The position numbers and the translations under genes are program-made. Of a DNA stretch of 64,000 nucleotides, positions 10,237 through 63,661 are shown piece by piece. Position 1 is the stretch's first letter; the number at the start of each line of letters is the position of its first letter. The stretch is taken from contig NC_090189.1 of assembly GCF_024679245.1 (NCBI RefSeq), positions 37,470,889 through 37,534,888 on the forward strand, in the 5' to 3' direction. The notes beneath the pieces are model-generated. The model had not been told where the DNA came from and did not search any database. It saw only the letters and a list, made by a program, of their open reading frames with translations. This DNA is from Pseudorasbora parva (Eukaryota; Chordata; Actinopteri; Cypriniformes; Gobionidae).

Positions 10237-11747
10237 AATAATAATAATAATAATACATTTTATTTATAATGCACTTTATATTAAACAAAATCTCAAAGTG
10301 CTACAGAATTTAAAAAAACAAAACAATCAACAACAATAAATAAATAAAACCGAAAAATAAAATAAAATAAATTAAACAAGTAGCAAGTCAATTAAAAGCT
10401 CTGCTAAAAAGGTGGGTTTTAAGACCACGCTTAAAAGTATTTATAGTCTGTGGAGTCCGCAGGTGGTCAGGGAGAGCGTTCCACAGACTGGGGGCTGCAG
10501 AGCAGAAGGCCCGATCCCCCATAGTACGGAGATTGGCTGTGGGAGTTTTGAGGCGATACAGCGAAACAGAGCGGAGGTTACGAGTGGCTGTTTGTGTGGT
10601 GAGGAGTTCCTTGAGATTGGAGGGAGCATCACCATGGATGCACTGGTGGGTAAGGAGAGAAATCTTGTACTCGATCCTGAACGACACAGGAAGCCAGTGG
10701 AGTGATTTTAGAATGGGGGTGATATGGTCGTATTTGCGCACCCTCATGAGGATCCTAGCAGCGCTGTTCTGAATACACTGCAGCCTCTGGAGATTTTTGC
10801 TAGGGATGCCAATAAGGAGCGCATTGCAGTAGTCCAGCCTGGAGGAGATAAAGGCATGGACAAGCTTCTCCGCATCAGCCAGTGATAGAATGGGACGAAG
10901 TTTGGCAATGTTTCTGAGGTGGAAGAAGGAGGTCTTACACAGGAGTTTGATGTGCGCTTCAAAAGTAAGCTGTGATTCCATTCTGACCCCCAGATTCGTG
11001 ACTGAAGTGGAAAGAGGAATGACATGATCAGAGAAAGCAATGCTGGTGATCACGGACTTCTGGACCTGAAGTGGAGTGCCGACTAGGATAGCTTCAGTTT
11101 TGGAGGTGTTTAGCTGCAGAAAGTTTTGCTTCATCCACGCCTTTATCTCATCCAGGCAAGTGATCAAAGTGGATGGTGTGAGGTCAGCAGAGGGAGATGA
11201 ACTTGTCCTAAAGTAAAGTTGAGTGTCATCAGCATAGCAGTGAAAAGAAATCCCATGCCGGTTGATGAGACGGCCAAGGGGGAGCCTGTAGAGGATGAAC
11301 AGGGTGGGACCGAGCACTGAGCCTTGAGGGACACCGCAGGTGACATTGTGTGACAGGGATGTAGCTTCTCCTAACGCAACATATTCAGTTCTCCCAGTGA
11401 GATAAGAAGAAAACCAGTTGTGTACCGAGTCAGAGAGACCAATGGTGGAATGTAAACGGTGAACGAGGATGTTATGGTCAACTGTATCGAAAGCTGCAGT
11501 TAAGTCCAGGAGGATGAGAAGGGATGGGGAACCAGCATCTGCCGCCATCAATAGATTGTTTGTGACCCTGACCAAAGCTGTTTCTGTGCTGTGTCCTGAG
11601 CGGAAACCAGACTGAAATTTCTCATAAAGATGGTTATGCTCCAAATGGACCTGAAGCTGTGCAGCAACAACTTTTTCCAGCACCTTAGAGAGGTATGGGA
11701 GGTTGGAGATGGGCCTGTAGTTGTCATTAACATCTGAGATCTCATCA
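10237..11747 (-). mobile_element. 5'-truncated L2-type LINE inserted in the Tc1 transposase
   Basis: The 3' end is a short (ATT)n tail at 10237-10256, and the 5' breakpoint falls within the RT region. Host Tc1 sequence resumes exactly on both sides: the CTCATAA and ATAACACC halves of one Tc1 codon block. Insertion site and order of events are therefore clear, with a short ATAA-type duplication. Confidence 0.85.
10388..11740 (-). CDS. L2/CR1-type reverse transcriptase, C-terminal two thirds
   Basis: An open frame of about 450 codons starts at the truncation with YRPISNLPYLSKVLEKVV. It continues through FQSGFRSGHSTETALVRV, the RT motif A LLDLTAAFDTVDH, GVPQGSVLGP and the motif C FHCYADDTQLYF. 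It ends with the usual L2 C-terminal text (ALPDHLRTPQTINTFKRGLK). The endonuclease domain and the RT fingers are missing, so no autonomous retrotransposition is possible. The remaining frame has no stop, which suggests fairly recent insertion. There is no native start codon. Confidence 0.85.
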   Translation of the reverse strand: MSDVNDNYRPISNLPYLSKVLEKVVAAQLQVHLEHNHLYEKFQSGFRSGHSTETALVRVTNNLLMAADAGSPSLLILLDLTAAFDTVDHNILVHRLHSTIGLSDSVHNWFSSYLTGRTEYVALGEATSLSHNVTCGVPQGSVLGPTLFILYRLPLGRLINRHGISFHCYADDTQLYFRTSSSPSADLTPSTLITCLDEIKAWMKQNFLQLNTSKTEAILVGTPLQVQKSVITSIAFSDHVIPLSTSVTNLGVRMESQLTFEAHIKLLCKTSFFHLRNIAKLRPILSLADAEKLVHAFISSRLDYCNALLIGIPSKNLQRLQCIQNSAARILMRVRKYDHITPILKSLHWLPVSFRIEYKISLLTHQCIHGDAPSNLKELLTTQTATRNLRSVSLYRLKTPTANLRTMGDRAFCSAAPSLWNALPDHLRTPQTINTFKRGLKTHLFSRAFN

Positions 11748-12809
11748 TTATGAGAGCCCAGGTTGCTCTGATAGTGGCCTTTAGCTCTTCTGCATTGTTG
11801 GGTCTGGCAAATCGCATCTTCCTCTTCAATACCCCAGAGATTTTCTATGGGGTTAAGGTCAGGCGCGTTTGCTGGCCAATTAAGAACAGGGATACCATGG
11901 TCCTTAAACTGGCACTGTGTGCAGGTGCCAAGTCCTGTTGGAAAATGAAATCTGCATCTCCATAAAGTTGGTCAGCAGCAGGAAGCAAGAAGTGCTCAAA
12001 AACTTCCTGGTATGTGGCTGCATTGACCTTGGACCTCAGAAAACGCAGTGAAAACACCAGCAGATAACATGGCACCCCAAACCATCACTGACTGTGGACA
12101 CTTTACACTGGACCTCTCTTCCTCCAGATTCTGGGAACCTGATTTCCAAAGGAAATGCAAAATTTACTTTCATCAGAGAACATAACTTTGGACCACTCAG
12201 CAGCAGTCCAGTGCTTTTTGTCTTTAGCCCAGACGAGGCATTTTTGACCCTGTCTGTTCTTCAAGAGTGGCTTGACATAAGGAATGTGACAGCTGAAACC
12301 CATGTCTTGCATACGTCTGTGCGTAGTGGTTCTTGAAGCACTGACTCCAGCTGCAGTCCACTCTTTGTGAATCTCCCCCACATTTTTGAATGGGTTTTGT
12401 TTCACAATCCTCTCCCGGGTGCGGTTATCCCTATTGCACTTTTTTCTACCACATCTTTCCCTTCCCTTCGCCTCTCTATTCATGTGCTTGGACACAGAGC
12501 TCTGTGAACAGCCAGACTCTTTTGCAATGACCTTGTGTGAGAGACCATTTAAAGGCCTTTGCAGGTGTTTTGAGTTAATTAGATTAGAGTGTGGCACTTG
12601 GTGTCTTCAATACTGAACCTTTTCACAATATTGTAATTTGCTGAGATACTGAATTTGAGATTTTCCTTGTCAGTTCTAATTATCAAAATTAAAAGTAATA
12701 AACATTAGAAATATATATGAATATACAAGTTTCACTTTTTGAACGGAATTAGTGAAATTAATCAACTTTTTGATGATTTTCTAATTATATGACCAGCACT
12801 GTATATGGA

Positions 12810-18067: not shown

Positions 18068-18814
18068 TGACGCACCACCATCCACCACATGTTTTATATT
18101 GACACATAGCAGGCCTAAAATGACTTTAAAATAAGATGGTTATTATTGGCACAATGTTGAGCTACAAAACAAAGAAGAAAATATTAAAATATTGCCGATG
18201 ACACGAAAATATCTCGCCAGACATCTGAACCCGGCTTAAGTCGCAGTGACCTGATTGCCGCTCGTGCCGTTTGATATTAATGTATTTCTCTTCCTAATGG
18301 TAAAAAAAATAAGTTCCTGAACCGAACAGTCATACGAATCATCTGGTGTCGTTGTGATGAAACCCCCCTGAGATGATTAAAATCGACGTTTAGGGAGCCC
18401 GCATCCGATATTTTTTTTGTGCAAAAGTATAAAGTGTAGTGTCAATAAAATCACTAATTTCAGTATTTATAATGTTATGAATTAAAAATTGAGTATTGTA
18501 TCTCAAACCCTTTGGTATAATTTATCATTATCTTATTTGATTTTCAGGAAATCAGAATATGACACCACTCAAGATACAAAAGCCAGTGATGGAAAAAAAA
18601 AATTGTCAGCAGACAAATTTTCATGTCATTTTCATGATTCCTTCATCACACTGCACGCAGATGCCAGAAGAGTATAGGATGTAGAGTAAATATTCAGAAA
18701 GTCGAGGCAGAGAAGTCAAAGTCACTGACAGTGCTGCAGACATTTTCATTCTGAGATTAAAAAATTCCACAATAAATGTGTTAAACAATATGGCACTGAC
18801 ACATCTTAAAGTGC
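18068..18814. other. Stretch between hAT element and provirus
   Basis: No coding evidence and no clear element ends. This is the host sequence immediately flanking the provirus integration site. Confidence 0.4.
18811..18814. other. Target-site duplication GTGC, left
   Basis: GTGC precedes the LTR here and follows the other LTR at 34455-34458. A 4-bp duplication fits a retroviral-type integrase with a 4-bp stagger. Confidence 0.85.
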
Positions 18815-20595
18815 TGTAACAACAACGAGTTTATGAGTTTAATGTCTCAGGGAATAATTAACTCAAAAGGGGCTCAATATTCAATATTCATGAATTTATG
18901 AATATAATTTGCCCGTCATTCATTACGTATTAAAAATTTCCCGATAGGGAAAATTGTTTAATTAAATACAAGTAACCCTTTATGAAATTGCTTGAAATTA
19001 TCCTACTAAGTTCGTCCACCAAATTAGTTATAGACTTTTCAACTCAATTCTCCATAAGGGATCACTGCTTTACGAGCGCATAAGAAACATTAACTTTACT
19101 GATCAGGACAAGTTCAATATTTCAAATGGTCATACAGTTTACTTTACTAACATAGTAGCATAAGCAGTTAGGTAACTTAGATCGCAAGTTTCATTGACTT
19201 TGTGTATGTGGGAGAACAACAGACCCAACTCATTAAATGTCTTTTCGGAGGTTTAATAAACACAGACTAAAAATAACACTACGATTCACACAGAGAGTAC
19301 ACACTAAATATGCATCAAGAAAGTAGACATGTAGGTATTAACGAAAGAATACATAAAAGAGAATAATGAATAGAATGAAATTAGAGAGAGATAAAAGAGA
19401 GAGATGGGGGAGAGAGAGATGAGAGAGAGAGATGAGACAAAGCATTTAGAGGTAAGAACACAACTTTCCTTCAGTTCAACAACTACGACCTTCACGGAGC
19501 TTGTCCCAACGGGACAATACACACCTTCTTTACAGCAGTATGAATTTTATAAGAAGAAGAATACTTGCATTTCTTTTGGTTTCGTTTTGGCTTCTCGCTT
19601 GTGTGTGTGTATATATATCTGCGTCTCAGGTAGTTCTCTCCGAGGTCGGGAGGTGACGTAGTTTTCCTTTAGCGGCGTTTCGGGTCTACCTCCTGAAGTA
19701 GCCCGTGGCTAGTAAGTTGATGGAACGAGGAACAAAGGATTGTTGAAGACCGGATTGTAGAAACGGAGTTTCTTGAAGAGGAGTTTCCAGAAGAGAAGAG
19801 TTCAGAGGAGAGTTTCAGAAGTCAAGCCGGGAAGAAGTTTCAGAAGCGAAGAGGGAAGTCAAGAGGGAAGATTGTGGTCTCCACTGATCTTTTAAGAGAA
19901 TTAATCCACGCCCCCTTCTGGCTAATTCACCCAATCCAGAGGGTGAATTCGGTAGCGGGAAAAGTTCTCTTTGTCTCATTTTATGGCCTATTTTGCATGT
20001 TCCTGAGGTGTCGTAAAGGGGTGTTGATTTTGTATGGTTTTACTCCCAAGTCGGCTAAACATATTAATGATACATTTCACAATCCCATTTTGTGCATCAT
20101 TGAGTAAGTCAAAGAAATAGGAATATTTAGATATCAAACACCTTATGGCTGGGAGATATTAAAACAGAGATACAATTTTACACAGGAATACAAGCATTTA
20201 AAATGAGCTTACATTGTTTCTATGCCATGACTGAGTAGGCCTGAGTCAAGGAGCATGCATATACACACCAAGCTACCTCGTATACAGTCTAGAATAGTCT
20301 TAATTAAAGCTTCATAAGGAATGTGTGTGTGTGCTCGTGAGTCCTTGTGTATTGACAGGAGCCTTGGCGCCTTTCGGTCTGGGGAATGAAAAAGGGGGGG
20401 AAACAGGGTTCGAGTCGTGTGACCCGATCAGGGCCTGTGTTATTGGACGGGGTCGTAAAACTGCCGAAGTTGTCACTTCCCCCAGACTCTGTGGCGTGGC
20501 TCTTAATTTACATGCGGCTAAAAGCTATCCCCCCTTTTTACAATCAACATTGGGTTCCTCTTTGATCCTCATTGTAAGAAACCACAGACGCTACA
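18815..20595 (-). repeat. 3' LTR of the provirus (1781 bp)
   Basis: It begins TGTAAC and ends GCTACA on plus, so it is a TG...CA unit. It is the same length as the other LTR, without indels. I found three substitutions against it (near 18851, 18873 and 20580). It contains GA-rich runs (19383-19437) and a TG/TA run (19598-19618). Short reading frames inside it are identical in both LTRs only because the LTRs are. Promoter signals for the minus direction were not identified with confidence. Confidence 0.95.
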
Positions 20596-20596
20596 G

Positions 20597-20608
20597 TTCC
20601 CCCTTTTC
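20597..20608 (-). promoter_or_regulatory. Polypurine tract
   Basis: The minus strand reads GAAAAGGGGGAA, ending two bases before the 3' LTR. This is the position and composition expected for the plus-strand DNA primer of reverse transcription. Confidence 0.85.
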
Positions 20609-20808
20609 ATCTGACGAAGTCCGTATGACATCGTGGGATGACAGTTATCGTTTTGGTCGGATGACAGGTGGATCATGAGGGTCAAGTGGCTAGTGGTTTC
20701 TTAATTGTTGTTTTTCTTCAGCCTTCGGTTCCTGAGGTTATTCTCGGACAGCCTCCCATCACGATGGATGGATGGTAGGTGAGTCGGGCAGTCGGGAGCA
20801 GGTGTTTG

Positions 20809-22575
20809 TTACGGCTGGGGCGCCAGCTCGATGAGGTCCGTCTCTGCTCCGGGCGTTGTAATTTCCCTCCGGGGTTTCCATCGGAGACCCCCGGACACGG
20901 CCGTTGTGAGCTTGGCTGTGGAGGTTCTCATCTGGTTGAATTTTCTGTACAGGAGGAAAGCGATGCCCAGGGTTAGGGTATTGCCGAAGATCATAGAGAC
21001 ACATAGCGCAGTGTCAGCGGCGGTCCAGGTTTGGACCACAGGAGAGTTATTCAGGATGGGTATTCGGGACAATGCTTGGAGGGCTGTATCAAGGGGAGCA
21101 ATGTCAATGAGCTGGGGCCCCCCTTTCTCAATCCACAATTCTAACTCGGGAGTGAGGGTGAAGTTGTGGTCCTTGAAGAAGGCGGGGATTTCCAGTTCCG
21201 ACTGGTATTCTTCGCTCGGGAGGTGGTACAAGGCCAAGTCGTCCAGGTGGAGGATGGCTCCTCGTGGTACTTGGACCCACATGCTCTGATCCAGCAGGTT
21301 GATACGAGTCGCAGTGTCGTGTTGGTCGTAGATCAGTGTGGCGGTGCGCACGGGAGTGTTGACGAGCCACCTGTCACCTACGATCTCTGCTTGCGTCTCG
21401 GTGACTAGGGTACGAGGCGTTGCGTCGGTGGGGCAGCGGGTATTGCTGAGCATAGGTTGCAACCCGCAGATTCCCTCCGTGTTGTCTCGGAGGAAAGGTT
21501 TGCTTGGGCAGAGATAATGAATGTCTTTGGTCAGGGTGCACATGTGTAGGTTTGGGGCTAGGTACAGCTGTGTGTCGCTGTCATGGTACGCGACTACCTG
21601 AGGAGTGCGCACCTTGAGGTGGGTGTTACCTTTCCAAAAGCCTACATTAATAATGTCTTTGAGTCGGTAGATTCGGCTCGACTCGATGATGGGTAAATTA
21701 AGGAGGAAACCCATTTCTTTCTGCTCGGGATCCACATACAGGGGAATGGCGCTTCCCAACGAGTAGGCCAGGTGTATCTGCAGCGGGTCAGTGGGTGCGT
21801 TGATCGCAGATGCCAACACGTTTTGCACCAGGCTTAAGGGTATCAGGTACGGTGGGATTCTACCCATGGCTAAGCTGTCGATGGACGAGCTTATTTCCCG
21901 TAACATGTCCGTCATTAAGGCGGTAACTAGCTGTGTTTGGGCAAAGTCATTTTGGAAGACGGTGAATAACTGTTTCATGGAGTTCACGGTCTGGTTCAAC
22001 AGGACACTGTGGGTGTTTAGAATTACCACAGTTCCTCTCAACGTCTTGCCGATAGTCTGTAGAGCGGCACTCTGTGTGGTGAGTTGCTCTTTGAGCTGTG
22101 GAAGTTCAGTTTGGATTTCAGCCACATGTCGTCTTACTGTGGCGATGTTCACTGCGTTGACACTGGACATACCAATGTTAAACAGAGTTCCGACGGCGGC
22201 AGCGGCTCCGAGCAGCGCTCCCAGGAACCGTTTGGGGCGGCGGTTGTGTCCACCTAATTCTGCCTGGGTGACGGTCATCTTCTCTAGTTGTTTTAGCATG
22301 TGCGTGACATCAGCATCGGCGTGGCGGAGAGAGTCCTCTGTCCAGCGAGCACCGGCCCAGCTGTACTGGGCTACTGCACGGGGGTAGTGTGCGTTGTAGA
22401 CGTTGCGGGGGTCAAGTCGGACATACACCTTCTGAGTGTGGGTTCGGCAGTTGGTGATCAGAAGTCCAGGTTGCTCTCTCAGTACGATGCCCGAGGCTGG
22501 ACCCGGTGTGATGATGTCTGGTGGTGGCTGGCCTCTGATTGTCTGGAGGCACAGGAGCAGGATCCACAGTGGCAT
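20809..22575 (-). CDS. env: Env: class I fusion glycoprotein, 588 aa
   Basis: This is the surface fusion protein of the provirus, synthesised into the ER. Residues 1-15 (MPLWILLLCLQTIRG) form a signal peptide. A short N-terminal subunit follows to the furin-type site RRPKR at 112-116. The next residues, FLGALLGAAAAVGTL, are a typical fusion peptide, followed by a helical heptad region to about 235. Cysteines at 346, 356, 370 and 381 cluster in the large subunit; C43 in the small subunit could link to it. Glycosylation sites are NQT (194) and NFT (471). A membrane segment lies at about 521-543, followed by a 45-residue tail. A small N-terminal and large C-terminal subunit resembles paramyxovirus F-type proteins rather than gammaretroviral SU/TM, and no CX6CC motif is present. 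The frame is intact. The start is the first ATG, one base after a splice acceptor. Confidence 0.88.
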   Translation of the reverse strand: MPLWILLLCLQTIRGQPPPDIITPGPASGIVLREQPGLLITNCRTHTQKVYVRLDPRNVYNAHYPRAVAQYSWAGARWTEDSLRHADADVTHMLKQLEKMTVTQAELGGHNRRPKRFLGALLGAAAAVGTLFNIGMSSVNAVNIATVRRHVAEIQTELPQLKEQLTTQSAALQTIGKTLRGTVVILNTHSVLLNQTVNSMKQLFTVFQNDFAQTQLVTALMTDMLREISSSIDSLAMGRIPPYLIPLSLVQNVLASAINAPTDPLQIHLAYSLGSAIPLYVDPEQKEMGFLLNLPIIESSRIYRLKDIINVGFWKGNTHLKVRTPQVVAYHDSDTQLYLAPNLHMCTLTKDIHYLCPSKPFLRDNTEGICGLQPMLSNTRCPTDATPRTLVTETQAEIVGDRWLVNTPVRTATLIYDQHDTATRINLLDQSMWVQVPRGAILHLDDLALYHLPSEEYQSELEIPAFFKDHNFTLTPELELWIEKGGPQLIDIAPLDTALQALSRIPILNNSPVVQTWTAADTALCVSMIFGNTLTLGIAFLLYRKFNQMRTSTAKLTTAVSGGLRWKPRREITTPGAETDLIELAPQP

Positions 22576-22576
22576 C

Positions 22577-22587
22577 CTGTTACAGGC

Positions 22588-22610
<23 letters not shown>
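22577..22610 (-). promoter_or_regulatory. Splice acceptor for env, with (CT)n polypyrimidine tract
   Basis: The minus strand reads a run of CT repeats, then TTGCCTGTAACAG, then G and the env ATG. AG is at 22578-22577. This is a strong acceptor only one base before the start codon, suggesting env is made from a spliced mRNA. The pyrimidine tract is a dinucleotide microsatellite (GA on plus, 22589-22615). Confidence 0.7.
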
Positions 22611-22621
<11 letters not shown>

Positions 22622-22697
22622 AAGAGAGAGTGTGTGTCAGTGAGATTTGTCCCAGGTGGGTGGGACAGTCTTCTCGTTTCGGGGACGGCGGTTGTGT

Positions 22698-25600
22698 TCA
22701 GCTTGCATTGGCCCCTAACTGTCTTTCTCTGTTAGTGGCCACATGTCTCTTGATCTGGTTCCTGTGAACCCATTTGAGAACTGGTTCTCTTTGTCCCTGG
22801 TTTAGCTGAATCTGGTATGCGACGGGAGAGAGTTTGTTCATAATCTCATGGGGTCCCGTCCAGTGGGGCAGAAATTTCTTTGACAATCGTCGGGAGCCTG
22901 TCAAAGGTGGCGGGTTGAAGTTGTAATACCAGACCTTGTTGCCCACCTCCAGTTCTTGGTGTGAGGCTTTGCGGTCGTAATAGGCTTTCTGACCTTCAGC
23001 GCTCTTTTGCAAGTGTTGCTGAGCAAAGGCAAAAGTTGTTTTTAAATGTCTATGGAGTTCATCGAGGTACTGGAATGTGGTGTACGCGGTGACCAGGTTG
23101 GAGTCGCCGGGTTGGTACAGCAGGTGTAGTGGCAGAGTCATCTGCCGCCCAGTCATGAGTTCAAAAGGGGATACCCGTGTTGATTCCTGCGGGGTGGCTC
23201 TGAGGGCCATCAGCACGAGGGGGAGTTTCATATCCCAGTCTTTTTGGTTAGCAGACACGTACTTTCTCAGCATGGCGACTACTGTGCGATTCGATCGTTC
23301 AACTTGCCCTGATGCGATTGGATGGTAACTGACGTGCAGTCTAGCCTGTATCCCCAGGCATTTCCAGATTTGTTGCATGATCTCGGCAGTGAAATGGGTG
23401 CCTCTGTCTGAGTTGACTTTCAGTGGCAATCCGAACCGTGAGAAAACGTGGTTTAACAGGAGGTATGCTGTGGTCTGGGCGGTGTCGTTGGGTGCTGGTA
23501 GACACTCCACCCACTTGGTAAACTGGCACACCACTGTAAGAAAGTACTTGTTGCCTCTTGTGGACCTGGGCAGGGGTCCTACCCAGTCGATTTGTAGGTC
23601 TGACCACGGAAACGTGATTCCTCTGCGTTGCAGTGGGGCTCTGTGGTTCGGGTTTGCCGGTTGGAACTGACAGCAAACCAGACACTCTCTGACGTACTCC
23701 GCAACATCTTGCTGCATGCCGGGCCAATATGCCACCTGTTTCAGTGTGTCATACGTGGCTCTGGTGCCGTGGTGTCCCGCACATGGTGTGTCGTGGGCGT
23801 ACATTAGCATCACCCCCCTTTGCGATCGTGGCACCACAAGCCGTGGCGTTGTGCTGCCATCGGGTGCAAACCACAGAATGTCGTCCTGTATACGCATCAT
23901 GTTTTTGGAGTTGTATAGTTGCTTGAGGCTTGAATCCTCAGAGAGGTCAGAGTCAGAGATAGGGTGGTCGGAGGGGTCAGAGAGGTGGTCGAAAATTGTC
24001 TTAATTGCCGTGTCAGAGGCTTGCATGTCCGCGATGTCGTTGTGTGAAATCTGCGGCGTGAGCGCTAGTGACTGTGCGGCGGCCATCGTGGCAGGTGCTG
24101 GTCGCTTGCTGCGGGTTAGCACTGCCACGGCGGGGCTGGGTGTGGGGTTTGGAGGTTCCCACATCTCGCCGTGTAGTGCGCCCATCTTTGCGAGGGCATC
24201 GGTCTGGTCATTTAAGTCTTTGTCGGGGCCGGGTAGTTTCGAATGGCCTTTGACCTTTTTCCAGTACACCGTCAGTTCATGTGTACTTGTGATGTTGTCA
24301 CATTCCTGGAACAGGTGTTGGTGCTTGACTGGCTTGTTGTTAGCGGTCTTGAAACCATTTTGTTTCCAGGTTGGAAGGTGGCAAATGAAACTGAGCCTGG
24401 CGTAGTTAGAGTCTGAGCAGATGAGTAGTTCTTTGAAGTTATGGGCTGACGCGATCTGACAGGCTATGAGAATGGCTGCTATTTCTGCATATTGCGATGA
24501 CTGGGGGCCCAGCATGAAGTGTCGTGGTGGGCACGGCTGATCGTTCACCCATAGCACACCTGCACCTGCTTTGAGGGTGCCGTCGTGGTTGTAGGAGCAC
24601 CCATCGACGTAGGCCGTGGGCATGTCCTGGCACGCGTTCAGTTCAAAGTACCTGTGACAGGTGAGTTGTTGTTGTTGGGGTTCTTGTTCATCAGCGGCAG
24701 CTGTAGGCGTGTCATCGGAGCAGTTCTGGCATGCAGCCAGGCCATTACCCAGCGCAGACTTGTGGTTCTGTGCATATCGTGCCTCAACGTTGCGGCCTTG
24801 GAGGGCCATCAGCCATGTGGCGATACGTGAATTAGTGACTACGCCATCTCGGATGCGTTGGCTATTGAGGAACATTACGGGCTGGTGGCAAGTCTCTATG
24901 ATAACCTTCTGCGCCCCAATGTAGTTGGAGAACCGCTGTATGGCCCACACCGTGCAGAACAGAGCTTTTTCACAGTCCGAGAACTTGCACTCCGGTGGGA
25001 GAAGCGTTTTGCTGGCATATGCGACCACCTTTTTGTCTTGGTCATGTCGTTGATAAAGGCCAGCACTAAGACAGTGGTCGGAAAACCCGGCTTCCAGGTA
25101 GAATTCCTTCTGTGGATCTGGGTAAGCAAGGCATGGGGCTGTGCATAAATGTCTTTTTAGTGCTGCCATGGCATGTTCCTGAGCTTCGGTCCAGACAAAC
25201 GGTGAGTCTTTCTTTAGCAGGGCTGTGAGCGGTCTGGCAATGTCTGAATAGTTCTCGATGAATTGTCGGGAGTAATTGCATACCCCCAGAAAACTGCGTA
25301 GCTTAGAGACATTAGTAGGGGGCTTGATGTTTTGAATGGCATGAATTCGGTTAGATTGAGGTTCAATGCCTTGGGATCCGATGAGCAAGCCAACGTAGTT
25401 GACCTTGGTTCGGCACCATTGTCCCTTGTGGAGGGCAATCTTGGCACCGGCTGCGGATAATTGGTTCAAAACATAGTCTATTTCTTTCAGGTGGTCGTCC
25501 ACCGTGGCGCTCTTCATGAGAACGTCGTCTACGTAGATTAAGTTGCCTCTTACTCTGGCATCCGGGCAGGCTTTGTTAAGGAAGATGTTGAACTCAGCTG

Positions 25601-28028
25601 GTGAGTTAGCATATCCGAACGGGCACCTGTTGAAGGTGAATTGTCGGTTGCCAAATGTGAAGGCCAGCTTGTGTTGATCTTCTGGATGCACTGGGATGGT
25701 CCAGAATCCAGAGGCCACATCAAGTGTAGAGAAGATTGTGGCCCCCCTTATTCGGGGTATTTCTTGTTCCAACTGAGTCATTGGCCACCTTGACAGCGGC
25801 ACCTGTTGATTCAATCTCCGATAGTCTATTGTTGGGCGCCAAGTGCCGTTGGGTTTGAGCACGGGCCAAATTGGGGCGGAGTAGGTGCTGTTACATGGAC
25901 GGATGACACCTTTGTCGAGCATGGACTCGATAATCTTCTGCACTGGTTCGTATGAAGCGATTGGGATCTTGTACTGCTTGACAAACGTGGGAGGCGCACC
26001 AGGTTGTGTTGGGATGCGCACCGTGTGGAGGTTTGTGAGCCCGCAGTCTAATGAGTCTTTGGCAAAGGATTCTTTAAACTTATAGAGGACTCGTCTGAGT
26101 CCCTGACGTTCTGTCTCATTTTGGAGCGCGTTAGCGTTTTGTAGAATTTGTTGCACTTGAGACTCAAAACCGGGGTACGGTTCCTCCACCTGGGTGTCAT
26201 CAGGCAGTTTGGTATGGAGGGGTGCAGCTAGTTCATCCGTTTCCATGACAGGCTGTTGGGAGACTGTGTATATTACAAGGTGACTGTCCTCTGTCAGCTC
26301 CGTTCGGCAGACCTGGTCTTTGGCCGCCGGCATGACAGATGTTATGGCGATGAACTTGAAGGGTACAGTGAACAGGGTGTTGTCTGTACATTCTGCTGGT
26401 ATCAGTGCGGGCGGAATGGGCCCAATGATGGGTAACACAAGTTCAAAGTCATGAAAGTCATTGCTGATTAGCCATCCCAGTCGAAAGGCTTTTGGGATGT
26501 TGATGTCCATTGCTGTGCAGTTGTTGAACAGGATGTAAACAATACGAGATGACACTTCAGTGAGGGGTGTGGCTTCAAGTGTGAGTCCGAGTTCCACACA
26601 CTCGGGTGAGGGTTGGAAGAAACTCAGTGTGTGGTTTAAGGTTTGACCACATCGCATGTTGAGCCGCACAGCGACCCCTTTGGTGTATGCTGGTATTGCA
26701 GTTCCTTGTTCACTGACAAGCGTGCAGACTTCAGGGATGGTCTGTCCCGACATGAGATTGTCAAGGCTGATGGGAAAGGGTGGCTGTGACGTTAATGGAG
26801 CCCATACCATTTCGTTACATACGTCCACATGAGCCTGGAGGCGAATCAGAATGTCTGCTCCGATGTAAACATCGTGGGGCGGGTCCGGCAGGACCAGAAA
26901 ATAATGGGTAAGGCACCTGTGGTTCCATTTCAGGTGTAACGCACAGACTCCTTTGGCGGACTCCATAGAGGAGGGGTATGAGTTCAAAGGAAAGCGGGTG
27001 CGCTTGCTGGCGTAAAGAGTGTGTGGTGCCTTTTCACTGAGTGACTTGAACAGTGAGAGACTAATGGCTGAGTTATCGGCCCATAGTGCGAGAATAATGT
27101 TTGTGGTGGTGATGTCATTCAGCTGTAGGTCATTCATGACCCGGGGGCAGAAGGCATCAGAGTCTTTGGTTAGCTGAAATGTGCAGAGTAGCGAACTTGC
27201 ACTTGGCTTTGGGGCTGAGGCTGGGTTGTCACAGTGTGCTGCAGGGGGTCCCGTGACCTTTGTGACCTGGCAGTCTGGCTCTGCGGGAGTTCCCGTGACC
27301 TCTGTGACTTGACAGTCTCGCTCAGACGATGTGTGTGTCTGAAGGGGCAGAGGGTCACGCACTTGAGCCCAGACTTTCAGCTGTTTGAAGTCCAGTACGG
27401 GTTCGAAGCGGTCCAGCAGGTCTTTTCCGATGAGGAAAGGATAAGCGTTCATAGGGGAGACATAGACGGGATGTATCAGGCTCATTGGTCCAATTGTCAG
27501 GTGGATGGAAGCTACGTGCTTGAGCTGGATGTCGTTTTGGCTATACGACTGCACATTTAGCTTACAAGTGTGAAGGTTAAGGGTGCGATTTTGCCTCTGT
27601 GCTTCAAATCTGAGTCTTTCAAACAGTTGGGCGGATATAAGCGTGAGGTCGGAGCCAGTGTCAACTAGGGCTTCGAGCTTAAATTCCCTTTCCATAGTGA
27701 TAGTCAGATAGAGTTTTCGAGCCATCCCCTTCTCGATTAGGTTTCCCAGGAGTCTTGGTGTGGGGACTTGTGTGTTGCTTAATAAGCCGTCTGGATATGT
27801 GTCAAGTGTCTCATTATGCGTGCAAATAATCAAAACAGCGCTTTCTGGTACGCTGGGCTGCCCCATGATGCTGTCTTGATCAGAGGCTGTTGCTGTCAGC
27901 TGTTGTGTGGGTGTGCTGCTGACGTGTGGGGGTGCAAAAGTTAGTTCATTAGTCTGTGGTTGGGGAACAGTGTTCAGGGTGGATGATTCAGTTGCAGGAG
28001 GGTCAGGCAGGTTGATTTCAGGTATCAT
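22698..28028 (-). CDS. pol: Pol: protease / second protease-like / RT / two RNase H / integrase, 1776 aa
   Basis: Numbering is from the ATG at 28028. Retropepsin: LVDTGSDLTL at 121-130, with FLIGKDLLDRF at 198-208. A second retropepsin-like domain follows at about 300-412: LALWADNSAISLSLFKSL aligns with the first active-site segment but lacks DTG, and VYIGADILIRL repeats the C-terminal strand/helix. RT at about 650-960 has Asp770 (FSTLDVASG) and YVDD at 832-835. RNase H 1 (about 975-1100) keeps Glu1020 but has lost the catalytic Asp residues. RNase H 2 (1138-1285) has Asp1142, Glu1182, Asp1206, His1262 and Asp1277. Integrase: HHCC zinc site (H1412, H1419 or H1420, C1449, C1452), catalytic Asp1481, Asp1541, Glu1577, and a GPY/F-like WTGPHEI at 1723-1729. 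The whole frame is in phase with gag and separated from it by one UGA codon. Confidence 0.93.
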   Translation of the reverse strand: MIPEINLPDPPATESSTLNTVPQPQTNELTFAPPHVSSTPTQQLTATASDQDSIMGQPSVPESAVLIICTHNETLDTYPDGLLSNTQVPTPRLLGNLIEKGMARKLYLTITMEREFKLEALVDTGSDLTLISAQLFERLRFEAQRQNRTLNLHTCKLNVQSYSQNDIQLKHVASIHLTIGPMSLIHPVYVSPMNAYPFLIGKDLLDRFEPVLDFKQLKVWAQVRDPLPLQTHTSSERDCQVTEVTGTPAEPDCQVTKVTGPPAAHCDNPASAPKPSASSLLCTFQLTKDSDAFCPRVMNDLQLNDITTTNIILALWADNSAISLSLFKSLSEKAPHTLYASKRTRFPLNSYPSSMESAKGVCALHLKWNHRCLTHYFLVLPDPPHDVYIGADILIRLQAHVDVCNEMVWAPLTSQPPFPISLDNLMSGQTIPEVCTLVSEQGTAIPAYTKGVAVRLNMRCGQTLNHTLSFFQPSPECVELGLTLEATPLTEVSSRIVYILFNNCTAMDINIPKAFRLGWLISNDFHDFELVLPIIGPIPPALIPAECTDNTLFTVPFKFIAITSVMPAAKDQVCRTELTEDSHLVIYTVSQQPVMETDELAAPLHTKLPDDTQVEEPYPGFESQVQQILQNANALQNETERQGLRRVLYKFKESFAKDSLDCGLTNLHTVRIPTQPGAPPTFVKQYKIPIASYEPVQKIIESMLDKGVIRPCNSTYSAPIWPVLKPNGTWRPTIDYRRLNQQVPLSRWPMTQLEQEIPRIRGATIFSTLDVASGFWTIPVHPEDQHKLAFTFGNRQFTFNRCPFGYANSPAEFNIFLNKACPDARVRGNLIYVDDVLMKSATVDDHLKEIDYVLNQLSAAGAKIALHKGQWCRTKVNYVGLLIGSQGIEPQSNRIHAIQNIKPPTNVSKLRSFLGVCNYSRQFIENYSDIARPLTALLKKDSPFVWTEAQEHAMAALKRHLCTAPCLAYPDPQKEFYLEAGFSDHCLSAGLYQRHDQDKKVVAYASKTLLPPECKFSDCEKALFCTVWAIQRFSNYIGAQKVIIETCHQPVMFLNSQRIRDGVVTNSRIATWLMALQGRNVEARYAQNHKSALGNGLAACQNCSDDTPTAAADEQEPQQQQLTCHRYFELNACQDMPTAYVDGCSYNHDGTLKAGAGVLWVNDQPCPPRHFMLGPQSSQYAEIAAILIACQIASAHNFKELLICSDSNYARLSFICHLPTWKQNGFKTANNKPVKHQHLFQECDNITSTHELTVYWKKVKGHSKLPGPDKDLNDQTDALAKMGALHGEMWEPPNPTPSPAVAVLTRSKRPAPATMAAAQSLALTPQISHNDIADMQASDTAIKTIFDHLSDPSDHPISDSDLSEDSSLKQLYNSKNMMRIQDDILWFAPDGSTTPRLVVPRSQRGVMLMYAHDTPCAGHHGTRATYDTLKQVAYWPGMQQDVAEYVRECLVCCQFQPANPNHRAPLQRRGITFPWSDLQIDWVGPLPRSTRGNKYFLTVVCQFTKWVECLPAPNDTAQTTAYLLLNHVFSRFGLPLKVNSDRGTHFTAEIMQQIWKCLGIQARLHVSYHPIASGQVERSNRTVVAMLRKYVSANQKDWDMKLPLVLMALRATPQESTRVSPFELMTGRQMTLPLHLLYQPGDSNLVTAYTTFQYLDELHRHLKTTFAFAQQHLQKSAEGQKAYYDRKASHQELEVGNKVWYYNFNPPPLTGSRRLSKKFLPHWTGPHEIMNKLSPVAYQIQLNQGQREPVLKWVHRNQIKRHVATNRERQLGANAS

Positions 28029-28037
28029 GTCTAGTCA
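28029..28037 (-). promoter_or_regulatory. Gag stop with readthrough context UGA-CUA-GAC
   Basis: The gag stop TGA (28037-28035) is followed by CTA GAC and then ATG, with gag and pol in the same frame (29909 to 28028 is a multiple of three). UGA followed by CUAG is a well-documented leaky stop in animals and viruses. This suggests Gag-Pol is made by stop readthrough, as in gamma- and epsilonretroviruses, rather than by frameshift. No downstream pseudoknot was established. Confidence 0.7.
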
Positions 28038-29909
28038 TGCTGTGCCTGGTCCGTCCTTCTTGTCTTCCTTGTGAGGTTTCTGTCGGAGGAACTCTTTCAG
28101 GGTTTTTAAGAGCTCTGTGACCTCAGAAGCAGCTGCACTTTCTTTGCCAGACGTGGGTTCAGGTCTGGGCCTGCCATTGTCCCGTCGAGGGTGGCCTCGT
28201 TGCTGGCTTTCTGGGCTGGGTGGACCCGGAGGTTCGTTTCGGCTCCGTCTGGGTTGTCGGCCGGCTTCCCAGGTGCCCACCCCCTTTTGGTTGTGAAAGG
28301 GGCGAGGCGGTTCCCAGGATCTTTCAGAGCGATCGCTCTGGTACCGTGGCCGGTCGCCATTATGACCACGCTGCCCTCTGCTGGCGTGGAGTGGTTTGGA
28401 CTCTCTGTTGACGGGTCGGTAACTGTGGTTCTGTTGGGCGCCCTCTAGGGTTAGCTCTGGGTGGTGCTCAGAGACAGGGCAGATGGTGGGCTGTTTTACA
28501 GTCTTTTCAGAAATGGTTTTCTGTTTGACATAAGCTTTGTGAGCCAAGTCTCTTAACTGTTGCATGTCCATGCTGCGCGGGCACGCCAGCACTCCCAGGT
28601 GGTGACTGACGGTAGGGTGCAGGTTTCGGAGGAAAAGAGTTTTGAAGTTGATGTCCTCCTCCATGCCTGGGTCGTTACGTGCCCCGAAGTAAGCACGTCG
28701 CAGTCTGTTATAAAAGTTCTGTGAGGTCTCGAGTCGGGCTTGCTTGAGTTCCATGGCAGTGATGAGCCCCTGGTCTGACTCGGGATCGGAGTACTCACGA
28801 ATTAGAGCTTGTCGTAGATGCCAGTAGTCCGCTTTGATGGCCTCTGGTTGTCGATCCAGAAAGCTGCGTACGTCCCGATTAGACGTGGCCCTGAGCAGGT
28901 ACAGTCTGTCCCAGTTGTTCGCTTGAGCGACAGTTTGCAAGTAAAAGTCTATGTCTTTTAAGTATGCGTGGACGTCGTGTCCTCCTGCTGGGTCTGGGCT
29001 GAAGGTAGGAATATTTCTGGCCAGCTTATCAAGGTTCTTTGAGGCTTTGTGGCTGTCGACCTTGACTTCCTGGAAGGGCGTCCTTTCCTCTGCTGCTGAC
29101 GGGGATTCGTGGAGACTGGCAGGTGATCTTTTACACAGGGGGCTGTCATCCCCCTTCGTAGTTCTTGCTTCTTGGTGCAAAGGTGCGGAGTAATCGGTCA
29201 GGGGAAACTCTGTGTTGTGTGTTTCCCCTTTCCGGTCACGTTGCACTTTATATGATTGTCTCAGTTCTCTGTGCACCATGTCAAGTTCATCTTTGAGCTC
29301 GTGTCTTTGCTGGATGAGCTCGTCGATCTCGGCTTGTGCTGACTGCAAATGTTTTGCACAGACTTTAGCGTTAATGTCTCTGTCTTTAAGTTCATCATGG
29401 GCTCTCTCCAGGAGGGCTTCGCCACGCCGAAGCTTTTCGTCGAGGTTTTTTCTGGCGTCTTTCTCTGACTGTATTCGTCGGTCGGTGTCACGACGGAGCT
29501 CCTCCAGGGTCTCTTGAAGTCTTTCTACTTCTTTTCTTTGTTCTTTGTCTGTTTCGTCATCTTTCTCTGTGTCCAGAAGCTGATCTAGACGAAGCTGGGT
29601 GAGGGCTTGGTCTCTCCGGGCCTCCTCGGCTTGAAGCTTTAGCGTTGCTGCCTCCTGTTCCAGGTTGGCGTAGCTCCCTTCGCTTAGCCGTGCCTGTGCG
29701 ATGAGGACGTGGGCGAGGCTTCCGAGGATCTTGGCCACTTCCTTGTTGGAGTAGCTGTGCGTGGGGTCGTGTGTCATCAGCTGGTCTAGCTCTGTGTCCA
29801 GTTGTCCCTGGTTCAGCTGCCCCAGACTTCCTTGACTGGTGGCCGTTAGCGCTTCCAGCCATGTCGTTAGGCGGTCCCACGGGACGGCAGGGCTGGGGGC
29901 ACGGGACAT
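28035..29909 (-). CDS. gag: Gag polyprotein, 624 aa
   Basis: This is the structural precursor of the particle. The first ATG (29909) gives MSRAPSPAVPWDRL; an upstream in-frame extension has no ATG and consists of a CA-repeat translation. Residues about 80-220 form a charged coiled coil (for example KEVERLQETLEELRRDTDRR). Residues 290-462 look like a capsid region: an IPTFSPDPAGGHDVHAYLKD entry segment, then helices with REYSDPESD and FKTLFLRNLHP, similar in style to Ty3/retroviral CA. The tail (497-584) is rich in Arg, Gly, Pro and Gln and has no CCHC zinc knuckle, so RNA binding may rest on basic RG-like stretches as in foamy viruses. A last helix (TELLKTLKEFLRQKP) precedes the leaky UGA. 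Confidence 0.88.
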   Translation of the reverse strand: MSRAPSPAVPWDRLTTWLEALTATSQGSLGQLNQGQLDTELDQLMTHDPTHSYSNKEVAKILGSLAHVLIAQARLSEGSYANLEQEAATLKLQAEEARRDQALTQLRLDQLLDTEKDDETDKEQRKEVERLQETLEELRRDTDRRIQSEKDARKNLDEKLRRGEALLERAHDELKDRDINAKVCAKHLQSAQAEIDELIQQRHELKDELDMVHRELRQSYKVQRDRKGETHNTEFPLTDYSAPLHQEARTTKGDDSPLCKRSPASLHESPSAAEERTPFQEVKVDSHKASKNLDKLARNIPTFSPDPAGGHDVHAYLKDIDFYLQTVAQANNWDRLYLLRATSNRDVRSFLDRQPEAIKADYWHLRQALIREYSDPESDQGLITAMELKQARLETSQNFYNRLRRAYFGARNDPGMEEDINFKTLFLRNLHPTVSHHLGVLACPRSMDMQQLRDLAHKAYVKQKTISEKTVKQPTICPVSEHHPELTLEGAQQNHSYRPVNRESKPLHASRGQRGHNGDRPRYQSDRSERSWEPPRPFHNQKGVGTWEAGRQPRRSRNEPPGPPSPESQQRGHPRRDNGRPRPEPTSGKESAAASEVTELLKTLKEFLRQKPHKEDKKDGPGTA

Positions 29910-29911
29910 TA

Positions 29912-29960
29912 CTGCGAACGAGAGAAACACAGCACACACACACACACACAGAGAGAGAGC
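29912..29960 (-). promoter_or_regulatory. Candidate splice acceptor before gag, with (TG)n tract
   Basis: The minus strand reads a TG-repeat run, then CTGTGTTTCTCTCGTTCGCAG, with AG at 29913-29912, two bases before the gag ATG. If it is used, the 2.7-kb leader would be partly removed from gag-pol mRNA. It is supported by motif only. Confidence 0.45.
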
Positions 29961-31061
29961 CAATGCAAGCTTGTTCTAAGCTAACGAGCTATCGTACGGA
30001 TAGCTGGGAATTTTGGCTAACTGATGTAGACAGTTAGATAATTAGACAATTCAGACAATTAGGTGGGCGGTAGCCCTGGTTGTCACTTGGTGAACTGCTG
30101 CTCGGTCGTCCCGGGACTATCTAATTCTCCTTGGGGTCTCTTGGTGAACTGAAAGAAACACAAACGTGATAGTCCAACAGCGAGGATAGGAAAGAGCACA
30201 GTGGAAACAAACACAAGATGAATTGGTCTGTAATGAAAGGAATGTCAGCGTGCGCGCCGGGAGTGTTAGGGAAAATTAATAGGCTTAATGCTCAAGATAT
30301 ACTAAAATTCGGCTTGTGTTATGGGTTGTCCCATTTAGCTCATCCGGGGTGAATTGAGGTCGCTCAAGTGGAAACCCAGCGGTGTGGTTGGCCTTTCAAA
30401 CGCTTCCAAACACCCACTGCCGTGTCCCCGGTCCCCTGCCACTCTGTGTCGCGTTGCGCCCACTCAAACAGCTTATGACTTTAAACACAACCCGACACAC
30501 CAGTCCATCAACCGCCAGCCCGCGCAGCAAAATCGGAACGTCCCCAGAACCCTCTTTTTCAAGAGTGGCCCCGCTCAGGCCCCGGTTTAGGGATTAGTCC
30601 CAGAGATTGCCTTGCGTGCGTGAGCTGGACTGGTTGACTTCTTTGGAGTGTCGAATTGCTGATGTCGCCACTGCGTGCCGCAGCCGCGGACAGAGATACA
30701 AGAAACCGAGACTCACACACAGCCGGTGTCGGTTACGTCGGTCGGGCCACCCCCCCCTCTGGAGACCAGCCTGTGACGATTCTCAATGCACCTCGGACGC
30801 GTGAGCCCTACAATGGATACACAAAGAGGGTAAACAGGTGGAATTAAAATGAATTAAAAGCTCCCCTGTTCACCGGATCAAAGGCCTTTTGATTGTAGGT
30901 GAGAAGGAAGTGGAAGTTTAAATATCAAGAGCAATTTAGCAAAAAGGCAAAAGTTTCTGTCAAGTAGTGATAAAACAAAAAGCACCTTTGATACGGTTTG
31001 TAATTTACCAGACTGAGCTTTGTTCCCGATGGGAGGGGAAAAGAAAACTTTTGCAGAGAGG

Positions 31062-31230
31062 GAAAAAAAAAAAAAAAATTAATAATAATAAAAAAAAAAT
31101 TAAAATAAAAAAATTAATAATAATAATTTTTAATTAAAAATTAATTAAAATTAAAAATTAAGATTAAAAATTGAAAATTAAAATTAAAATAAAGTTATAA
31201 ATTAAAAAAAAAAAAAAATTGAGAAAAAAA
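31062..31230. repeat. A-rich low-complexity tract in the leader
   Basis: Runs of A mixed with TTAATAATAAT and AATTAAAATT words. On the transcribed strand this is T-rich. Confidence 0.9.
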
Positions 31231-31783
31231 ATAAAAATTAGAAGCTCAACTTAATTCAAATTAAATTCAAAGCAAGTTTAAATGAAATTTAACTAAGCCT
31301 GTAAGGAAAATCAAATAAAAGAAAGCCAATCAAAAATCCTACCCTATAACGATTGATCTCTAAATGGGAGTTATCCAAATAAAAGAATTAATCAGGAAGG
31401 GCGTAGGGATTTAGTGTTGCGCTGACTTAACAGGGTATAGCCACACGGTGGCGTCCTTCCTTCCAATTGGACTGTCTGTGACTTAAACCTAATTTCACTT
31501 TGGGTTAGAGGAAGTTATGTTTCTTTTTAAACTTCAAATTCGAATAAGGGTGTTTAATCAGCGAGAAAGGAGATTTGGTTGTTGCTAGAAAAATTGTATA
31601 AATGAAACTGTGTACAACAGTAAGCAATAAACAATTTATAGGCTCAAACTTATTTTGTTAAGGCAGAATGAAATACGGAGAGTGAAACTATCCGAATTTA
31701 TCCACACGATGGCGCTATTGCGCCCGCCCTAGACTAGAGTTAGTTAGGCGGAAATGCTCACCAGATGGCTTTGTCTGGTTCTT

Positions 31784-31920
31784 GAGTCGCCCTCTGGCGG
31801 TTTGCAAGCGGCGTTGCAATTTCTGAGTCGCCTTCGCGTTTTGCAAGCGGCGTTGCAATTCTTGAGTCGCCCTCTGGCGGTTTGCAAGCGGCGTTGCAAT
31901 TTCTGGGTCGCCCTGGCGTT
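31784..31920. repeat. ~40-bp tandem repeats in the leader
   Basis: Three units start at 31784, 31825 and 31864, each GAGTCGCC... with TTTGCAAGCGGCGTTGCAAT. A partial fourth starts at 31905. Spacing is 41, 39 and 41 bp. Confidence 0.9.
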
Positions 31921-32649
31921 CTTCGCTTTACTGGCTCTTGCAAATCATTTACAAATGACTGGTGCTCTAGATGCACGCGTAACAAGACGGGTGAATGCAG
32001 GAATCTTCCGTCTGCCTATTCACGCATTTTACATGGACTCCAATAGACATTTATCAATATGGCTGACGGTTTTCAGCATCTCTGATTCAAATGTTTTAGG
32101 TCTCAAGTCTTTGGTTAGCTAAGCCAGACTTAAACCAGGAGTTATCGTTTATCTTAACGATCTAATAATTATTCTGAGGCCCCTTATATTGTACAGGAGA
32201 GTCTCGTCCTGTCCCAATCTTCCGCACAGATAGAAACTTTTGTAGTTCAGATCAAGCGGGATAACGCAACGTACGTGTCTACAGACATCATCAAAATCTC
32301 ATTATTTTGATGGAACACATAATATATTGCTCGAGTCAAATGTATGGATTTCCTACAATACATTCGTTTGGGAATCACGCGGATAACCCTATTGCGCCCA
32401 CGGCTGCAGTTTTTCGTTTCAAAATTGGATTTTTGTACCGTTCATATTTTTATTAATATAATCCGGCTACTTCAACATTTCTCAGCATCTGTTTATGCTT
32501 GGGTTCGCCTTGCGCGTACCGTTCAATTCACAAAACAACACCAAAACAAAACGAAACAAAAACGCGCGTGCAGGTTATTAATACCTCAAAAATACACAAT
32601 GAATAGAATATGAATATCACTCACACATACACAAACGCCCGAAACTTGC

Positions 32650-32667
32650 TCGCATTTTTCTCCACCA
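32650..32667 (-). other. Possible primer-binding site
   Basis: On the minus strand the LTR end (...GTTACA) is followed by TGTATT and then TGGTGGAGAAAAATGCG. The TGG start suits pairing with a tRNA CCA end, but it lies six bases from the LTR. I cannot match the rest to a particular tRNA. Confidence 0.35.
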
Positions 32668-32673
32668 AATACA

Positions 32674-34454
32674 TGTAACAACAACGAGTTTATGAGTTTA
32701 ATGTCTCGGGGAATAATTAACTCAAAAGGGGTTCAATATTCAATATTCATGAATTTATGAATATAATTTGCCCGTCATTCATTACGTATTAAAAATTTCC
32801 CGATAGGGAAAATTGTTTAATTAAATACAAGTAACCCTTTATGAAATTGCTTGAAATTATCCTACTAAGTTCGTCCACCAAATTAGTTATAGACTTTTCA
32901 ACTCAATTCTCCATAAGGGATCACTGCTTTACGAGCGCATAAGAAACATTAACTTTACTGATCAGGACAAGTTCAATATTTCAAATGGTCATACAGTTTA
33001 CTTTACTAACATAGTAGCATAAGCAGTTAGGTAACTTAGATCGCAAGTTTCATTGACTTTGTGTATGTGGGAGAACAACAGACCCAACTCATTAAATGTC
33101 TTTTCGGAGGTTTAATAAACACAGACTAAAAATAACACTACGATTCACACAGAGAGTACACACTAAATATGCATCAAGAAAGTAGACATGTAGGTATTAA
33201 CGAAAGAATACATAAAAGAGAATAATGAATAGAATGAAATTAGAGAGAGATAAAAGAGAGAGATGGGGGAGAGAGAGATGAGAGAGAGAGATGAGACAAA
33301 GCATTTAGAGGTAAGAACACAACTTTCCTTCAGTTCAACAACTACGACCTTCACGGAGCTTGTCCCAACGGGACAATACACACCTTCTTTACAGCAGTAT
33401 GAATTTTATAAGAAGAAGAATACTTGCATTTCTTTTGGTTTCGTTTTGGCTTCTCGCTTGTGTGTGTGTATATATATCTGCGTCTCAGGTAGTTCTCTCC
33501 GAGGTCGGGAGGTGACGTAGTTTTCCTTTAGCGGCGTTTCGGGTCTACCTCCTGAAGTAGCCCGTGGCTAGTAAGTTGATGGAACGAGGAACAAAGGATT
33601 GTTGAAGACCGGATTGTAGAAACGGAGTTTCTTGAAGAGGAGTTTCCAGAAGAGAAGAGTTCAGAGGAGAGTTTCAGAAGTCAAGCCGGGAAGAAGTTTC
33701 AGAAGCGAAGAGGGAAGTCAAGAGGGAAGATTGTGGTCTCCACTGATCTTTTAAGAGAATTAATCCACGCCCCCTTCTGGCTAATTCACCCAATCCAGAG
33801 GGTGAATTCGGTAGCGGGAAAAGTTCTCTTTGTCTCATTTTATGGCCTATTTTGCATGTTCCTGAGGTGTCGTAAAGGGGTGTTGATTTTGTATGGTTTT
33901 ACTCCCAAGTCGGCTAAACATATTAATGATACATTTCACAATCCCATTTTGTGCATCATTGAGTAAGTCAAAGAAATAGGAATATTTAGATATCAAACAC
34001 CTTATGGCTGGGAGATATTAAAACAGAGATACAATTTTACACAGGAATACAAGCATTTAAAATGAGCTTACATTGTTTCTATGCCATGACTGAGTAGGCC
34101 TGAGTCAAGGAGCATGCATATACACACCAAGCTACCTCGTATACAGTCTAGAATAGTCTTAATTAAAGCTTCATAAGGAATGTGTGTGTGTGCTCGTGAG
34201 TCCTTGTGTATTGACAGGAGCCTTGGCGCCTTTCGGTCTGGGGAATGAAAAAGGGGGGGAAACAGGGTTCGAGTCGTGTGACCCGATCAGGGCCTGTGTT
34301 ATTGGACGGGGTCGTAAAACTGCCGAAGTTGTCACTTCCCCCAGACTCTGTGGCGTGGCTCTTAATTTACATGCGGCTAAAAGCTATCCCCCCTTTTTAC
34401 AATCAACATTGGGTTCCTCTTTGATCCTCATTGTAAGAGACCACAGACGCTACA
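32674..34454 (-). repeat. 5' LTR of the provirus (1781 bp)
   Basis: This is identical in length to 18815-20595 and differs at three positions that I could see. It carries the promoter and start site for transcription toward lower coordinates. TSD GTGC follows at 34455-34458. Confidence 0.95.
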
Positions 34455-34459
34455 GTGCT

Positions 34460-62145: not shown

Positions 62146-62149
62146 GAGG

Positions 62150-63650: not shown

Positions 63651-63661
63651 GGAGGGGGTAA

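Follow-up and report, generated by a model that had tools for sequence, protein, structure and literature searches.

A complete endogenous lokiretrovirus in the genome of Pseudorasbora parva, with a likely UGA-CUAG readthrough junction between gag and pol

A 64-kb stretch of the Pseudorasbora parva genome (64,000 nucleotides; contig NC_090189.1, positions 37,470,889 to 37,534,888), hereafter the window, contains a complete provirus on its minus strand, at window positions 18811–34458 including the target-site duplications. We consider it highly probable that this provirus is a complete endogenous lokiretrovirus, that it belongs to a family of at least 34 close copies, that its Gag-Pol is likely produced by readthrough of a UGA-CUAG stop signal, and that it entered the germline probably very recently. 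The assignment is supported by the reverse transcriptase (RT), the integrase, the dual RNase H, and the F-like Env, which agree with one another and with the first-pass annotation of this DNA, where lokiretrovirus had been named as the best-fitting lineage.

The two long terminal repeats (LTRs) of 1781 bp differed by three mismatches (18849, 18873, and 20580), every one a transition, and by no indels. Both copies of the GTGC duplication were perfect, and gag, pol, and env were all uninterrupted (Table 1), so that the structure described in the first-pass annotation was confirmed in each of these respects. A chance origin is excluded because three long frames, near-identical long repeats, and a perfect duplication occur together. 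The neutral rates assumed here are 2e-9 to 1e-8 per site and year and are not calibrated for P. parva; at these rates, three differences in 1781 positions correspond to an insertion age of roughly 0.1 to 0.4 million years. The earlier claim of a very recent integration thus holds, and 13 of the 14 sister copies that could be dated carried even fewer LTR substitutions. The element is endogenous in a vertebrate genome, with repeats around the insertion, and no further pieces of it were found in the flanks of the window (blastn, E 0.001).

The RT tree was built from 64 rows picked from 111 extracted sequences (P0034 gave no RT row). In this tree, the RT of the window grouped with 41 relatives from cyprinids, other fishes, lamprey, and frogs with a support of 100/99, and the nearest sequence, from common carp, was 92% identical. 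These hosts (lamprey, fishes, and frogs) are those reported for lokiretroviruses. The 18 Gypsy rows were split from the side of the window at 100/100, and P0078 and P0082, which had been selected beforehand as lokiretroviruses, grouped with foamy virus instead. Similarly, in the integrase tree (37 rows), the window grouped with the lokiretrovirus rows, and a 100/100 branch set all 12 Gypsy rows apart on the other side. In a smaller RT tree (44 rows, mixture model), a topology that constrained the window to join the four rows from foamy or retrovirus-like elements was rejected by the approximately unbiased (AU) test (p-AU 0.0107). Membership in the canonical Retroviridae was rejected on this result, in line with the earlier statement that the element is not a standard retrovirus.

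The domain structure of Pol points in the same direction. The YVDD motif noted previously was recovered in the RT core, and the doubled RNase H stood in part: there are indeed two domains, the second of which keeps its acidic motifs, but the first is degenerate. When this first domain was aligned with Ty3, two of the three catalytic acids, at what we take to be the catalytic positions of the Ty3 enzyme, were replaced (G and C for D). By sequence, this degenerate domain appears to be in the "tether" state of retroviruses. All 22 lokiretrovirus-side rows and both retrovirus-like rows had the second RNase H, and none of the 12 Gypsy rows compared did.

The first-pass annotation had described Env as resembling the mononegavirus F protein, and this is supported by Pfam and by predicted fold. 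The Env of the window matched Fusion_gly at 2.3e-06 (26.7 bits, under the Pfam cut-off of 29.8), and 23 of the 30 aligned Envs matched the family at E 0.01; no baculovirus F family was found at E 0.1 in the same Pfam search. R113, K115, R116, and F117 were invariant across the 30 Envs. The structure model of Env matched paramyxovirus F by fold, and foamy virus was also matched. These fold matches reopen the question of the origin of retroviral envelopes. One could go further and suppose that the F-like Env of lokiretroviruses is an ancestral fusogen that still exists in foamy viruses and fish epsilonretroviruses, that it was present in the common ancestor of retroviruses and lokiretroviruses rather than captured privately from a negative-strand virus, and that a live infectious lineage is now entering the germline of this fish; we regard this combined proposal as doubtful.

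Several observations weigh against the placement with lokiretroviruses. Forcing the window together with Gypsy gave a less likely tree, yet one that was not rejected at 0.05 (AU, p 0.0635); as the tree is unrooted, this constraint can be satisfied by shifting the attachment of Gypsy onto the branch of the window. The canonical retroviruses were represented by only four rows (two foamy RTs and two others), and the lokiretrovirus side was represented by relatives of the window element rather than by the published reference lokiretroviruses. The Env model was middling (predicted local distance difference test, pLDDT, 67), whole-chain superpositions were poor (template-modeling score 0.2–0.5, root-mean-square deviation mostly >20), and a sequence search of solved structures with Env found no F protein. 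Some of these results would suit an env-bearing Ty3/Gypsy element of the errantivirus type that had captured an F-type envelope and was copying itself inside the germline. The best solved relative of the RT is Ty3, and baculovirus F was also among the fold matches of Env (3.8e-15), which is relevant in that the errantivirus env is likely derived from baculovirus F according to PMC12440569, a source seen in part. However, the RT did not fall firmly within Ty3/Gypsy, and in both trees a 100/100 branch separates the window from the Gypsy rows. The second RNase H is present, the first is degenerate, and Pfam returned Fusion_gly and not a baculovirus family. We therefore rejected membership in Gypsy or the errantiviruses, and we consider this origin extremely improbable.

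At the gag–pol junction of this lokiretrovirus, the 3' end of gag reads GCA UGA CUAG and pol continues in the same frame. The UGA-CUAG heptamer occurs once on the element strand, exactly at the gag stop. The same heptamer was found at the end of gag in all 34 copies of the window's family (31 in the stretches first read and three in wider stretches). A second family of lokiretroviruses in this genome, whose RT is 63–67% alike (L057, L058, L075–L078, and L119, on contigs C3, C5, C2, C15, C6, C25, and C2; four copies with 1745-codon frames), also had it in seven of seven copies, and it was in frame with RT in six of these seven. Among three further, degraded relatives, it was absent from the stretch read in L120 and L122 and present in L121, where many stops follow. 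In an alignment of the window Gag with 23 others chosen from 120 listed, 22 of the 24 ended in the same column. In two records, P0013 and P0015, Gag runs into pol with W and then L at the column where the other Gags stop, which is what UGA or UGG before CUA would yield. A stem–loop-driven mechanism was rejected, as no stable fold was predicted 3' of the stop (z +0.4).

Four mammalian genes that carry UGA-CUAG at their stop are read through efficiently in human cells; for OPRL1, readthrough of about 31% is described, with 12 downstream nucleotides sufficient (PMC4132726, seen in part). The comparison across copies and across two families thus gives good support, at the level of sequence, to the readthrough proposed earlier, and Gag-Pol is likely made in this way. 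Pol might instead arise by termination and reinitiation, since in the window's family an ATG lies two codons behind the gag stop, or from a separate spliced message. The second family keeps UGA-CUAG though its next Met lies 27 codons on (six copies with that stretch read), so reinitiation at a nearby ATG is not a shared mechanism, and L054 and L055, two members of the window's family of 34, read CTG in place of the ATG. A spliced message has a precedent in foamy viruses, whose Pol comes from one. The single occurrence of the heptamer on the element strand, at the gag stop, and the four lokiretrovirus records in which gag and pol are fused also speak against these routes, and we think either route distinctly unlikely.

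Two facts count against too broad a reading of the junction. The seven copies of the second family are mutually close and count as one lineage, and four other lokiretrovirus records (P0026, P0037, P0040, and P0052), which hold the Gag capsid at E 3e-59 to 3e-29 against the window Gag, run unbroken from Gag into pol as recorded. Readthrough is therefore not universal in lokiretroviruses, and the gag stop is probably a trait of part of the lineage. The main text of PMC9040795, in the part available, makes no mention of readthrough or of a stop codon, and a literature search did not find "lokiretrovirus" and "readthrough" together, although the original description of lokiretroviruses may report it.

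A search of the 1.23-Gb P. parva assembly (window on contig C18) with the window RT yielded, among 135 listed matches, at least 34 full-length ones (289–291 of 291 residues) at 96–100% identity, the window included, and three further partial loci at 95–99%. An open pol frame of 1775–1778 codons was present in 20 of the 34. The LTR regions were read for 20 copies besides the window, of which six had no complete LTR pair and were not dated. The 14 dated copies all had perfect 4-bp duplications and showed no LTR substitution (eight copies), one (five copies), or nine (one copy), with 0–3 indels. Two of these 14, about 37 kb apart on C9 (L010 and L011), share the duplication GTGG and are probably one insertion within a segmental duplication.

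Compared with the window LTR, 13 of the dated copies differed at 6–29 sites and the fourteenth at 72; for each copy, this distance was greater than that between its own two LTRs. Because between-copy differences exceed within-copy differences, the copies seem to derive from a varied pool of replicating elements rather than from a single recent master. The same pattern bears on whether gene conversion, within the LTR pair or among copies, could have rejuvenated an old insertion. Such conversion can leave few LTR differences, but here the two LTRs of a dated copy agree with each other while differing from the window LTR, and the three long frames are intact; we judge this explanation very unlikely. 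The family appears to have been mobile recently and is perhaps still so.

The ratio of nonsynonymous to synonymous differences (pN/pS) in RT between copies was 0.165 for 29 copies (L035 and four copies without a locus excluded) and 0.138 for the 20 with open pol. The env frame had 588 codons in 11 of 11 copies, namely the window and 10 of the 19 other open-pol copies, chosen for their open pol and not at random; pN/pS in this set was 0.28 (bootstrap 0.12–0.62). The Env cleavage site was unchanged in all 11, and two of the copies' Envs were identical as proteins to P0124 (ENA contig). Thus, both RT and env appear to be under purifying selection between copies. Selection on env favors spread by reinfection over purely intracellular copying, with the reservation that the sample is not random; in addition, all copies come from one assembly, which also limits the case made here. 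If the family were now spreading in germ cells alone, with env as a passenger, intracellular amplification would fit the dozens of copies and the youth of most dated ones. The open and selected env and its retained cleavage site run counter to this alternative, which we hold to be rather unlikely.

For the preferred reading, an endogenous lokiretrovirus with recent germline entry, the following expression and spread can be proposed. The LTR transcript would be spliced from a donor just past the primer site, either to an acceptor ahead of gag, removing the 2.7-kb leader, or to an acceptor ahead of env, giving the env message. A minority of ribosomes would decode UGA as an amino acid and so produce Gag-Pol. 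Env would be cut by furin and fuse membranes in the manner of paramyxovirus F, and new copies would arise at least partly from germline reinfection, which would keep env functional.

Table 1. Features of the provirus and its flanking duplications, in window coordinates.
Feature	Position	Strand	Basis or remark
Target-site duplication GTGC, copy 1	18811..18814	.	LTR/flank comparison
3' LTR, 1781 bp	18815..20595	-	Comparison with 5' LTR
Polypurine tract GAAAAGGGGGAA, adjoining U3	20597..20608	-	
env, 588 aa; class I fusion glycoprotein, F-like in fold and Pfam match	20809..22575	-	
Predicted Env transmembrane segment, residues 524-542	20950..21006	-	Hydropathy
Predicted furin-type site RPKR, then hydrophobic fusion-peptide-like stretch	22228..22239	-	
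Predicted splice acceptor (AACAG preceded by a CT tract), 1 nt ahead of env ATG	22577..22630	-	
pol frame, 1776 aa from first ATG	22698..28028	-	
Integrase zinc-binding domain and DD-35-E core	23319..23834	-	Pfam, motifs
Second RNase H with acidic motifs	24177..24617	-	RNase_H 9.2e-20
Ty3-type RNase H as tether, two of three catalytic acids replaced	24897..25193	-	RT_RNaseH_2 3.5e-26
Reverse transcriptase core	25386..25859	-	RVT_1 6.9e-25; YVDD at 25524-25535
Protease motif DTGS	27651..27662	-	Weak retropepsin matches (Pfam)
UGA stop of gag with CUAG behind it, pol in the same frame; predicted site of readthrough	28031..28037	-	
gag, 624 aa	28035..29909	-	Predicted coiled coil, capsid domain, R/P/G-rich tail
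Untranslated leader, 2764 nt	29910..32673	-	
Predicted splice acceptor	29912..29932	-	Ends 2 nt ahead of gag ATG
Predicted splice donor GTGAGT	32619..32624	-	50 nt into leader
Primer-binding-site-like TGGTGGAGAAAAATGCGAGC	32648..32667	-	6 nt past 5' LTR
5' LTR, 1781 bp	32674..34454	-	Comparison with 3' LTR
Target-site duplication GTGC, copy 2	34455..34458	.	LTR/flank comparison

The sequence resembling a primer-binding site begins TGGTGGAGAA... and presumably resembles tRNA-Ala with three extra A; the six bases that separate it from the LTR are TGTATT (32668–32673). Within U3 of both LTRs, about 57 nt from its start, there is a second polypurine-tract-like AAAAAGGGGGGA (20539 and 34398, minus strand). 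The leader contains tandem repeats, A/T-rich and of 41 bp (31072–31240 and 31783–31914), and a second GTGAGT-type site at 30716. An additional long gene in the leader was rejected, as no frame confined to it on the element strand exceeded 85 codons. On the env side, AACAG and the preceding CT tract are present in the window, and the 10 other copies read all share them. The gag ATG is the same start as in the aligned relatives. A structure model of Gag (pLDDT 61; residues counted from the TTG-started frame, not from the ATG) showed a long coiled coil at about 52–246 and a capsid-like part at 307–487, and a motif check of Gag did not find a CCHC knuckle.

Elsewhere in the window, there are two RT frames resembling those of long interspersed nuclear elements (LINEs; 10391–11971, minus strand, and 60339–61580, plus strand), the second with a UnaL2-type LINE 3' end downstream (62075–62128, plus strand), and an open Tc1-like transposase frame of 337 residues (53703–54713, plus strand). 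GC-rich tandem repeats of 27, 30, and 54 bp (62123–63661) contain long open frames with a high content of Pro/Val or Arg/Gly.

Among known systems, the foamy viruses (Spumaretrovirinae) differ from the window element in that their RT falls outside its 100/99 set and in having a spliced Pol message, whereas its pol lies in frame behind a UGA stop. The closest likeness is to the lokiretroviruses of Wang and Han, described (PMC9040795, in the part available) as having LTRs, gag-pol-env, a dual RNase H with a degenerate tether, an Env related to mononegavirus F, vertebrate hosts, and an RT beside retroviruses. The window element shares all of these features and differs in its UGA stop from the four records that fuse gag and pol. 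Descriptions of lokiretroviruses have come from genome sequences; in the present genome, where 20 copies have an open pol, 13 of 14 dated sister copies have near-identical LTRs, and env is under selection, infectivity and protein production become directly testable. UGA-CUAG recoding for Gag-Pol is moreover indicated in two diverged families, whereas other lokiretrovirus records fuse the genes. The Odin retrotransposons of sea anemones, named as the sister of lokiretroviruses (PMC9040795) and known here by description, also have a dual RNase H; they have no env and occur in cnidarians, whereas the window element has an env and a fish host, and membership in Odin was rejected on account of that env.

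The junction shares its seven nucleotides, UGA-CUAG, with OPRL1, OPRK1, AQP4, and MAPK10, and the GCA ahead of the stop is predominant in OPRL1 and present in the window gag; those are cellular genes with an efficiency measured in human cells, and the present comparison is one of sequence (PMC4132726, seen in part). The window Gag was 38% identical over 95% to a 617-aa zebrafish protein (P0276), with the same end column. This length equals that published for the Gag of Bik-1, and P0276, judged from length and species, would be that Gag. Bik-1 Gag has a coiled coil, a capsid, and a glycine-rich patch, and the BHIKHARI elements (Bik-1 to Bik-5) resemble the window element in a Gag with an N-terminal coiled coil, a capsid domain, and a tail (PMC10996621, a preprint, seen in part). 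P0013 and P0015 have a Gag 58–59% identical to the Bik-1-like P0276 and a pol 80% like that of the window, and are possibly complete partners of the Gag-only BHIKHARI elements. Bik-1 and Bik-2 have no pol and env, whereas the window element is complete, and a requirement for the Gag-only elements in the development of zebrafish is reported (PMC10996621). The window element is thus a complete relative of BHIKHARI, of the type of partner that could supply the missing enzymes.

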